Of a stretch of 64,000 nucleotides of DNA, positions 4,479 to 41,534 are shown piece after piece. Made by a program: the position numbers and the translations under genes. Origin of the DNA: Aequorivita xiaoshiensis. GTDB taxonomy: Bacteria; Bacteroidota; Bacteroidia; Flavobacteriales; Flavobacteriaceae. Under the pieces are notes generated by a model that was not told where the DNA came from, made no database searches, and was given only the letters and a program-made list of their open reading frames with translations. The stretch lies in assembly GCF_022008395.1 (NCBI RefSeq), contig NZ_JAIRBB010000002.1, positions 62,001-126,000 on the forward strand, given 5' to 3'. The stretch's first letter is position 1; the number at the start of each line of letters is the position of its first letter.

Positions 4479-4489
4479 TCAAATTAAAA

Positions 4490-4792
4490 ATGGAAGACAA
4501 GAAAAGATTATCATATTTACGAGCTAAGAAAAAGGTGGAAACTCTAAAAGCATTTTATGGACATTTGTTGATATATGTGATTGTTAACCTTATAGTTGTT
4601 CTTATTTCGGCTAATGTTTTTAATAGCAAGCCATTAGACTTTAAACACTGGAGTAATTACGCGATTGCTTCTTTCTGGGGTATAGGATTATTTTCGCATG
4701 CTATTTATGTTTTTTTTGAATTCAAATTCAATAATGTGTTTTTGAAACGATGGGAAGAAAAGAAAATCAAACAGTTTTTAGAAGAGCAATAG
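4490..4792 (+). CDS. 2TM domain protein, second copy
   Basis: A 100-residue protein with the same architecture as its upstream neighbour: basic leader (RAKKKVETLKAFY), two membrane segments (about 24-42 and 58-78) and the tail RWEEKKIKQFLEEQ. It starts 11 bp after the preceding gene, so the two are almost certainly co-transcribed. Together with the domain fused to the kinase it makes three 2TM domains in one operon. No catalytic motif is present. Confidence 0.85.
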   Translation: MEDKKRLSYLRAKKKVETLKAFYGHLLIYVIVNLIVVLISANVFNSKPLDFKHWSNYAIASFWGIGLFSHAIYVFFEFKFNNVFLKRWEEKKIKQFLEEQ

Positions 4793-14641: not shown

Positions 14642-14721
14642 TTATTAGCTTTTTAACTGATAAGCCTTATTTATTAGTGTTTAAGCTAATATAGTTTATT
14701 TATTAGTATTATGACTAATAA
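14642..14721 (+). promoter_or_regulatory. Triple palindromic operator array
   Basis: Three 22-bp imperfect palindromes of the form TTATTAGT-N6-ACTAATAA lie at 14642-14663, 14671-14692 and 14700-14721. Their starts are exactly 29 bp apart. The third has perfect 8-bp arms and ends 5 bp before the -7 box at 14727. The position suggests repression of the SatD-like gene, perhaps by its own product. The array is visible in the sequence; the binding protein is inferred. Confidence 0.75.
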
Positions 14722-14726
14722 ATTTG

Positions 14727-14734
14727 TATATTTG
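14727..14734 (+). promoter_or_regulatory. -7 box TATATTTG
   Basis: Consensus TAnnTTTG, 17 bases before the SatD-like ATG. The -33 region would fall inside the third operator. Confidence 0.75.
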
Positions 14735-14750
14735 AATAAATTTATAATGA

Positions 14751-15437
14751 ATGAAATATTCGGTTATATCTGGCGACATCATATCTTCTACTAGTTTAAC
14801 AGGGGAAGATCGTAAACTCGTAGAGGAAAGATTAAAGAGTCTTCTAAAAGATTTAAAGGAAGAATTTAATGTATATGGTCGTATTATTAAAGGCGACTAT
14901 ATAGAATGTGTAGTGCCAAATGCATCGGAAGGGTTACAAGTGGCTTTAGCTATAAAGAGTTTTGTAAAAGCAATTCCAATTGAAGTTAAAACCTACAAAA
15001 CATCCGACAGTAGAGTAAAACAATTTAAGACACACGGAATTCGTCTTGCTATAGGCTATGGTGAATTGAGTAGATATAGCCCTAAAAATGGAATAGTTGA
15101 TGGTGAGGCAATTTACTTATCAGGCCGCGAAATAAGTGGAGAAACGACCTATAATAAGGAGCGAATCGTTATAAAAAACACTTTGTTTTTTGCTTCAAAA
15201 GACGAGTCTTTAAATAAAAATTTCCAACCTTTACTAGCACTTTTAGATGTATTAATAAGTAAAGCAACATCTAGACAATGTGAGGTTTTATATTTAAAGC
15301 TGATGAATAATCAAGAAGATGAAATTGCAAAACGTTTAGGTATTGGGCAGTCTGCAGTAAATCAGCACTCGACTAGTGTAGGTTGGAATGCAATTGAAGA
15401 AGCTGTAAATTACTATAAAATAATAGTTACAAACTAA
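14751..15437 (+). CDS. SatD-like protein: cyclase-like domain plus helix-turn-helix
   Basis: A 228-residue soluble protein of the SatD type, function unknown. Residues 1-147 resemble a class III nucleotide cyclase fold: GDIISST with Asp9, GRIIKGDYIE with Asp49 at about the usual metal-site spacing, RLAIGYGEL, and DGEAIYLSGREI, where Arg126 is kept but the transition-state Asn is replaced by Tyr122. That suggests a nucleotide-sensing rather than catalytic domain. Residues about 173-212 form a sigma-70-region-4-like helix-turn-helix (EDEIAKRLGIGQSAVNQHS). It lies 6 bp before a DUF3307 membrane protein gene and behind a triple operator array, so autoregulation is plausible. The SatD label is from memory; the cyclase comparison is my reading of motifs. 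Confidence 0.75.
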   Translation: MKYSVISGDIISSTSLTGEDRKLVEERLKSLLKDLKEEFNVYGRIIKGDYIECVVPNASEGLQVALAIKSFVKAIPIEVKTYKTSDSRVKQFKTHGIRLAIGYGELSRYSPKNGIVDGEAIYLSGREISGETTYNKERIVIKNTLFFASKDESLNKNFQPLLALLDVLISKATSRQCEVLYLKLMNNQEDEIAKRLGIGQSAVNQHSTSVGWNAIEEAVNYYKIIVTN

Positions 15438-15443
15438 AACACT

Positions 15444-16157
15444 ATGGGAATAAAGGAATTATTGCTCCTCCAATTTATAGCACATTTGTGTTTGGATTAC
15501 TTTTTTCAAACTAATAAATTAGCTAAACAAAAAAACACAATAGGCTTTAAAAGTTCGTTTTTGTATTGGCACGCTTTAATGTGCTTTGTATTATCATGGC
15601 TATTTTCATTACAAGTTGAATTTGTTTGGGCTGCAGCAATAATAACAATAACTCATTTCTTAATTGATGGATTTAAACTCCACCTTAATAACAGTAAATA
15701 TTTGGGCAGGTACGCTTTTTTTATAGACCAGGCCTTACACTTAATAATCTTAACTGTAGTAGTACTTTTGTTTGATAAATGGCAAGGAATAAATCCCTAT
15801 GTAAACACCTTTATAGAATTTAAATACCTATTAATAATAGCGGGATATATGGTGTGTTTAAAGCCTGCGAATATTTTTATTAGAGAAGTATTTAAAGCAA
15901 CAGATATACAGGTTTCCAGCGATAATGAAATGCCCAACGCAGGAAAAGTAATTGGGGTGTTAGAAAGAATTCTAACGCTAACATTTATCATCGTTTCACA
16001 ATATTCAGCAGTAGGGTTTTTGATTGCTGCAAAATCAATTCTACGTTATAGAAATGATGAAACATTAAAAACAGAATACGTGCTTATAGGTACTATGTTG
16101 AGCTTCGGAATAGCAGTAATAGTAGGTATAATTATTAATTTATTTTTATTCATTTAA
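15444..16157 (+). CDS. DUF3307 membrane protein
   Basis: A 237-residue integral membrane protein with about six hydrophobic segments. The first half has DUF3307 features: the start LLLLQFIAHLCLDYFFQT, a conserved WHA, and a THFLIDGFKL motif with Asp/His in a membrane setting. It follows the SatD-like gene by 6 bp, a pairing I recall from other Bacteroidota genomes, and its stop abuts the GTG of tilS. Function is unknown; it may be the membrane partner or effector of the SatD-like protein. Confidence 0.8.
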   Translation: MGIKELLLLQFIAHLCLDYFFQTNKLAKQKNTIGFKSSFLYWHALMCFVLSWLFSLQVEFVWAAAIITITHFLIDGFKLHLNNSKYLGRYAFFIDQALHLIILTVVVLLFDKWQGINPYVNTFIEFKYLLIIAGYMVCLKPANIFIREVFKATDIQVSSDNEMPNAGKVIGVLERILTLTFIIVSQYSAVGFLIAAKSILRYRNDETLKTEYVLIGTMLSFGIAVIVGIIINLFLFI

Positions 16158-41467: not shown

Positions 41468-41495
41468 AAAATCCCGTTTGTAGCGGGATTTTTTT
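41468..41495 (+). terminator. Intrinsic terminator
   Basis: Stem AAATCCCG/CGGGATTT with a 7-base loop and T run after the M48 gene. Confidence 0.88.
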
Positions 41496-41534
41496 ATTAG
41501 TTTAGCGACTTATAAATTTAACCGAATATTTTTT

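Follow-up and report, generated by a model that had tools for sequence, protein, structure and literature searches.

The intergenic DNA ahead of a SatD-like gene in Aequorivita xiaoshiensis carries three palindromes at constant pitch, and the same kind of array recurs before homologous genes in many other genera. The core bases of these sites change in step with the DNA-reading helix of SatD, so SatD most likely binds them and switches its own gene pair. Judging from the sequence comparisons, we hold with a little better than even confidence that the array serves as operator for the SatD-DUF3307 genes and is bound by SatD itself, which most likely represses its own synthesis. A likely DNA target would in this way be assigned to a gene pair that is widespread and has no known function. 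The features in question lie within a stretch of 64,000 nucleotides, here called the window:

14642 to 14663, no strand assigned: palindrome 1, putative operator, TTATTAGC-N6-ACTGATAA, 2 mismatches
14671 to 14692, no strand assigned: palindrome 2, putative operator, TTATTAGT-N6-GCTAATAT, 2 mismatches
14700 to 14721, no strand assigned: palindrome 3, putative operator, perfect (0 mismatches), arms reaching 14698 to 14723
14719 to 14726: second TAnnTTTG match, TAAATTTG, overlapping palindrome 3 and 8 bp upstream of the TATATTTG box
14727 to 14734, forward strand: TAnnTTTG -7 box, TATATTTG, 5 bp past palindrome 3
14751 to 15437, forward strand: SatD-like protein of 228 aa, with a predicted class III cyclase-like N-domain (about residues 1-150) and a C-terminal helix-turn-helix (HTH; about residues 174-227)
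15345 to 15380, forward strand: codons of the predicted recognition helix, residues 199-210, supported by covariation with the half-site core
15363 to 15365, forward strand: codon of residue 205 (Gln), within the recognition helix
15444 to 16157, forward strand: DUF3307 membrane protein (PF11750), co-directional and 6 bp past the SatD-like gene

Mismatches were counted against TTATTAGT-N6-ACTAATAA, and palindrome 3 is flawless across 10-bp arms. The gap between the pabB stop (14635) and the ATG of the SatD-like gene (14751) is filled almost entirely by the three palindromes, the first of which starts 6 bp past the end of pabB, and the TATATTTG box; the offset of the palindromes before the ATG is similar in orthologues from the genus. 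The original prediction, which named three 22-bp palindromes (the last of them perfect) at an exact 29-bp period with a -7 box 5 bp further on, is confirmed by the starts at 14642, 14671 and 14700, by mismatch counts of 2, 2 and 0, and by the box at 14727-14734; that prediction did not name the second TAnnTTTG match at 14719-14726. Its further claim that the sites lie on nearly the same DNA face fails, since 29 bp corresponds to 2.76 turns at 10.5 bp per turn, short of three turns, which rotates successive sites by about 86 degrees and puts them off the same face.

Lone palindromes are only mildly enriched in the window, with 6 matches at up to 3 mismatches versus 2.4 expected, and 5 of 100 shuffles also reached 6 matches. 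Single sites that barely exceed expectation would suit a reading of the array as chance repeats in AT-rich intergenic DNA, but this reading is refuted by the in-register conservation of the array across many genera and its near absence from the control stretches described below. Matches to the two-site pattern (up to 3 mismatches) in the window's own genome were confined to the satD array, and a reversed-pattern control of this search returned 0 matches in any of 28 genomes of the genus; looser patterns matched about as often as their control in the own genome (158 and 186 matches versus 205 and 187 for the control). The in-register array is not a product of chance. A lone palindrome at 41494-41515 (1 mismatch, before an MFS gene) was considered as a second target and rejected as chance; it was kept in only 2 of 28 genus orthologues, those of the own genome and one close relative, the shared part is a terminator tail, and the palindrome stands next to a conserved terminator.

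The nearest named proteins to the SatD-like protein come from Aequorivita species. Loss of the palindromes in close relatives would have refuted the original prediction, and the palindromes and their pitch are kept in relatives: a SatD-like homologue was found in 27 of the 28 genus genomes and the two-site pattern in 26. One of the two genomes lacking the pattern is 69% complete, with no homologue found, and the other carries a distant homologue with a pitch of 28. Within the genus the pattern occurs only at satD, apart from a 3-mismatch match in one genome (G016) and an array at a contig end in another (G020). The extra match with 3 mismatches (L229, 1868-1918) lies between small genes that appear, from their open reading frames, to derive from a Mu-like prophage. 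A MAG contig (L005) has foreign-looking GC-rich DNA before satD and the array ends another contig (L230), a split that is likely a misassembly.

The earlier observation proved real yet understated, and the array extends far beyond one genome. When two-site palindrome scores were averaged over 97 distinct upstream regions, the mean peaked at a period of 29 (13.3), compared with 10.8-11.5 at other periods between 23 and 45 and 10.0 for shuffles at period 29; when pitch-29 scoring was carried out with no assumed sequence, 89 of the 97 regions exceeded every one of 60 shuffles by one or both of the two scores used. A larger set comprised 218 loci representing 189 distinct SatD-like proteins, 188 of them with enough upstream DNA. 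Here, 168 of 188 regions beat all 20 shuffles (best of 15 periods), 104 at pitch 29, 63 at pitch 28 and 1 at period 22, and the remaining 20 did not rise above the shuffles. A significant array at pitch 28 or 29 was therefore present in 167 of the 188 scored regions. The same test was applied to 250-bp control stretches on either side of satD, roughly 1 kb upstream and 0.8 kb downstream, of which 11/122 and 6/125, respectively, were significant at any period; at pitch 28 or 29 there were 0 upstream and 3 downstream (3/247 in total). For two loci (L120 and L125) the downstream stretch contains a second array that is genuine.

Twenty-two of the 189 loci had no usable significant array. They include two whose arrays start beyond the 220 bp scanned upstream (L033 and L125), one at a contig break (L005), one at a contig end (L129) and one with a disrupted C-terminus (L128), as well as 10 real or borderline misses, among them L104 (top period 22, formally significant). 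The other seven (L163, L165, L209, L211, L212, L218 and L223), all of genus group g190, have an insertion beside the recognition helix and no significant array, and these insertion-bearing homologues are a natural negative control.

The palindrome is 22 bp long in both branches, with a gap between palindromes of 7 bp at pitch 29 or 6 bp at pitch 28, and half-site orientation alternates at 14/15 bp or 14/14 bp, respectively. Half-sites fit a TTAT anchor at 94.5%, a figure aided by the choice of a register that favours the anchor. The sites look like a set of operators, as predicted, standing in register before the regulator's own gene and conserved in relatives, as expected of a tandem-operator autoregulator. 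MetJ, a ribbon-helix-helix protein acting on met boxes, is a regulator of this kind, and the likeness lies in several in-register operators at constant pitch with the own gene as target, an arrangement that suits cooperative loading. The SatD array differs in its predicted HTH binder, in its 22-bp palindromes at a pitch of 28 or 29 bp and in the cyclase-like sensor domain of the protein. Pitch also follows the length of the HTH loop: a loop of 12 goes with pitch 29 (91/93 significant arrays), a loop of 14 with pitch 28 (55/64), and a loop of 13 with both (6 at 28 and 3 at 29). Loop length as the cause of pitch was nevertheless rejected, because the tree offers just 1-3 independent contrasts and shared ancestry suffices.

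A link between the array and SatD is the variation of the three bases that follow TTAT, which differ by lineage (TAG, AAG, CGG, AGG, GTG, AGA, CTG, TCC, AAC and others) and remain matched between the two arms of the palindrome as they change. SatD was searched for the region that best predicts how similar two operators are once the effect of N-domain distance is removed. For 87 of the 97 distinct loci (8 had no array, and L047 and L054 were dropped as AT-only), the best of 224 five-residue windows was 202-206, in the recognition helix (partial r 0.34; p 0.001 in a permutation that does not preserve ancestry). Single-column, contingency and tree tests used 167 of the 189 loci. Column 205 was the best of all SatD columns (N-domain-corrected r 0.451, n=167) and came first again in the pitch-28 set (r 0.565, n=63), and in the pitch-29 set (n=104) it was second at 0.341 to column 202 at 0.342. 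DUF3307 columns, which share the same ancestry, reached 0.26 at best, with a usable DUF3307 in 114 of the 167 loci.

Particular residues go with particular bases. Gln205 was accompanied by xAG in 61/82 loci versus 14/85 for other residues, Lys or Arg205 by xxC in 21/31 versus 3/136, Glu or Asp205 by Cxx in 18/19 versus 23/148, and Thr202 by CGx in 14/21 versus 11/146. An N-domain tree requires at least 41 changes at residue 205 and at least 63 in the core. Independent pairs on supported branches changed in the predicted direction for Lys/Arg (5.4 versus 0.0; 7 pairs, median p 0.06), Gln (2.7 versus 0.1; 5 pairs, median p 0.25), Thr202 with CGx (2.0 versus 0.0; 6 pairs, median p 0.5) and Glu/Asp (1.2 versus 0.0; 3 pairs, median p 1); with so few pairs, the p values are not firm. 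Residue 205 and the core base may thus be read as a recognition code, on a pitch that is fixed yet specific to each branch, and tandem-operator regulators with changed specificities offer a case for studying how regulator and operator change together under fixed spacing.

On these data, SatD very probably binds the array. The original proposal that the sites are operators of the HTH product holds best for the binder, since the core covaries with residues 202 and 205, and in that respect it stands as likely. The sites are AT-rich and binding by SatD is itself a prediction, both of which give some room to a protein encoded outside the operon that would bind the array with SatD as merely one of its targets. 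We consider such a binder very improbable, because the operator core tracks SatD residues 202 and 205, the two-site pattern within the genus is found only at satD save for the G016 and G020 matches, and none of the seven homologues in which an insertion adjoins the recognition helix has an array.

Six further records of plasmid or chromid sequences, from Vibrio lentus, two Salinivibrio, two Pseudoalteromonas and Segatella copri, provided an out-of-sample check, and DUF3307 is annotated beside the homologue in all four of the six that have gene tables. At pitch 28, three palindromes are present in V. lentus (score 13.9 versus a maximum of 7.2 in 12 shuffles) and two in each Pseudoalteromonas (6.7 and 6.1 versus 4.3); both Salinivibrio scores fell below the null maximum and that of Segatella equalled it. 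Arrays were individually significant in 3 of the 5 gammaproteobacterial loci, which represent three genera. All five gammaproteobacterial proteins carry Lys205 and all five operators have C as the third core base, as the code from Bacteroidota predicts, and Segatella (Tyr205, core GAT) falls outside the code.

The placement of the array relative to the promoter bears on the sign of regulation. TAnnTTTG boxes are strongly enriched at the array end, with 90 of 167 arrays having one within -12 to +40 versus 7.3 expected. A palindrome end followed by TTTG yields some false TAnnTTTG matches, the window included, and boxes were for this reason recounted, taking the box furthest downstream and setting a stricter standard for the last site. 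So counted, a box lies near 98 of 167 arrays, and 69 of 167 have no exact TAnnTTTG box nearby. The last palindrome overlaps the -7 box in 20/98 arrays (-33 TTG in 8/20), ends 4-6 bp before it in 36/98, the class of the window (-33 TTG in 1/36; 24/36 from the window's genus), lies 24-27 bp before it in 29/98 (-33 TTG, just past the array, in 20/29), and stands at other distances in 13/98 (-33 TTG in 5/13). When the nearest box was counted instead (n=110), the last site overlapped it in 35 arrays, ended 4-6 bp before it in 28 and 24-27 bp before it in 20; the recount shifted the balance from repression towards activation.

The principal rival, accordingly, is that SatD binds the array and activates its own operon, recruiting RNA polymerase when liganded; the last palindrome would replace a missing -33 element in a class II-like manner in the window's class and abut the -33 element elsewhere. 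A Bacteroidota housekeeping promoter pairs a TAnnTTTG -7 box with a -33 TTG; a TTG was sought 15-25 bp upstream of both window boxes (14727-14734 and 14719-14726) and none was found. At 17-23 bp before the box, a TTG is absent from the window (TATATTTG) and from 35 of the 36 arrays of this class, and the missing -33 TTG suits activation. So does the 24-27 bp class, in which the array stands just upstream of a good promoter, directly before a -33 TTG in 20 of 29. On the other hand, arrays that overlap the -7 box or cover the -33 region suit repression; within the window's class, palindrome 3 occupies the place expected for the -33 element, 20/98 arrays have their last site over the -7 box itself, where activators rarely work, and the position of the array relative to the promoter varies by lineage, which repression tolerates better. 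Because one repression mechanism covers all three placements, autorepression is favoured, though at odds short of two to one, and we regard activation as a serious but less probable reading; the original expectation that binding blocks the promoter is accordingly the more probable one, by that narrow margin.

The palindromes could also fold into hairpins, and pabB ends just upstream of them (6 bp), as would be expected if the array acted as an RNA or DNA element such as a terminator, attenuator, recombination site or partition site. However, AT-rich arms make poor terminators, such an element predicts neither the covariation with the HTH nor a fixed pitch of 28 or 29, and the window array, being upstream of the TATATTTG box, should lie outside the satD transcript. 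We judge this reading to be, if anything, even less probable than that of an outside binder.

The gene pair itself is almost constant. Of 124 loci, which represent 98 distinct SatD proteins and include duplicates between sources, 123 have a DUF3307-like gene next after the SatD gene, the exception being L128. The best Pfam match of the window protein is SatD (PF16264, a family that takes its name from a gene in the streptococcal sat locus, satD), over residues 4-208 with 27.3 bits, under the curated gathering cut-off of 29, and we therefore call it SatD-like; only 10 of 60 aligned relatives match PF16264 at E 0.01 or better. Membership of the second protein in PF11750 is clear (90.7 bits, cut-off 23), and it extends past the Pfam match by a conserved C-terminal half. 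This half, outside the Pfam match, is strongly conserved among homologues of the gene at 15444-16157. Its model is all-helical (pLDDT 89.9), and a fold search of the model against the PDB gave no match at E <= 0.001. An anti-phage role was considered for the pair and rejected, since PADLOC gave a weak HTH match only for SatD (E 0.003) and none for DUF3307; in phage records, no match was found to SatD (tblastn) or to a gammaproteobacterial DUF3307.

In the SatD model, which is confident (pLDDT 92.3), an alpha/beta domain leads through a long helix into a helical HTH. Each of the 50 PDB matches listed for it is an adenylyl cyclase, a guanylyl cyclase or a cyclic UMP synthase (best E 3e-4, E of at most 0.001 in 7, query TM-score 0.30-0.41), and the predicted N-terminal half resembles class III cyclases in fold, at these modest TM-scores. 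Asp9 (187/187) and Asp49 (188/188) are invariant in non-gap rows of the alignment, and they may correspond to the places where class III cyclases hold metal. Residue 122, which we assume to be the position of the usual transition-state Asn of class III cyclases, is variable, and Arg126 is kept in 120/189. The SatD-like protein thus differs from class III cyclases in its HTH fusion, its variable residue 122 and its partly kept Arg126. Cyclase catalysis appears doubtful on this model, and we infer that the N-domain may serve as a nucleotide- or metal-binding sensor rather than as a proven cyclase.

From the array, its conservation, the gene order, the covariation and the predicted fold, a mechanism can be proposed for autorepression by SatD. 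One SatD dimer would occupy each palindrome through the C-terminal HTH, dimers being implied by palindromic sites, and recognition-helix residues 202 and 205 would read the base triplet that follows TTAT. Contacts between neighbouring dimers would account for the fixed pitch, which is 29 bp here and 28 bp in another branch; half-sites alternating at 14/15 or 14/14 bp form an ordered ladder that favours such contacts, and cooperative binding is plausible given the fixed pitch. SatD would assemble on the DNA in a short, ordered row that covers or adjoins the core promoter, and would most likely repress its own operon. A signal at the cyclase-like domain, at a guess a nucleotide or a metal, would then bring about release and lead to more SatD and DUF3307 protein. 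On this basis, binding by SatD, the identity of its ligand and the part played by DUF3307 can be tested directly.

A bolder and, in our view, unlikely extension is that SatD, gated by a nucleotide or a metal, polymerises on DNA and tightly locks an ancient two-gene module with a harmful or costly DUF3307 membrane protein. If so, two dimer interfaces (the HTH and the cyclase-like domain) could alternate to form a helical filament of 4-10 subunits, and DUF3307 would be harmful or costly once released, in the manner of a repressor-guarded effector. In the literature searched, neither DNA binding nor operators were found described for SatD, and no study of the SatD-DUF3307 gene pair was found. In Streptococcus pyogenes, satD is reported to be an accessory gene and nonetheless essential (PMC11323703), which would fit the guard of a harmful partner, if the partner is present there; sat genes of S. 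mutans are linked to acid tolerance (PMC11323703, the label being repeated in PMC10326533), and a phage DUF3307 protein is listed (PMC8504454).

Additionally, in two related Bacteroidales (L120, at 2721-2830 and 4488-4600, and L125 alike), a second genuine array with the same AAC core lies about 150 bp past DUF3307, so that arrays bracket the operon though the next genes differ, and looping between the bracketing arrays is possible.
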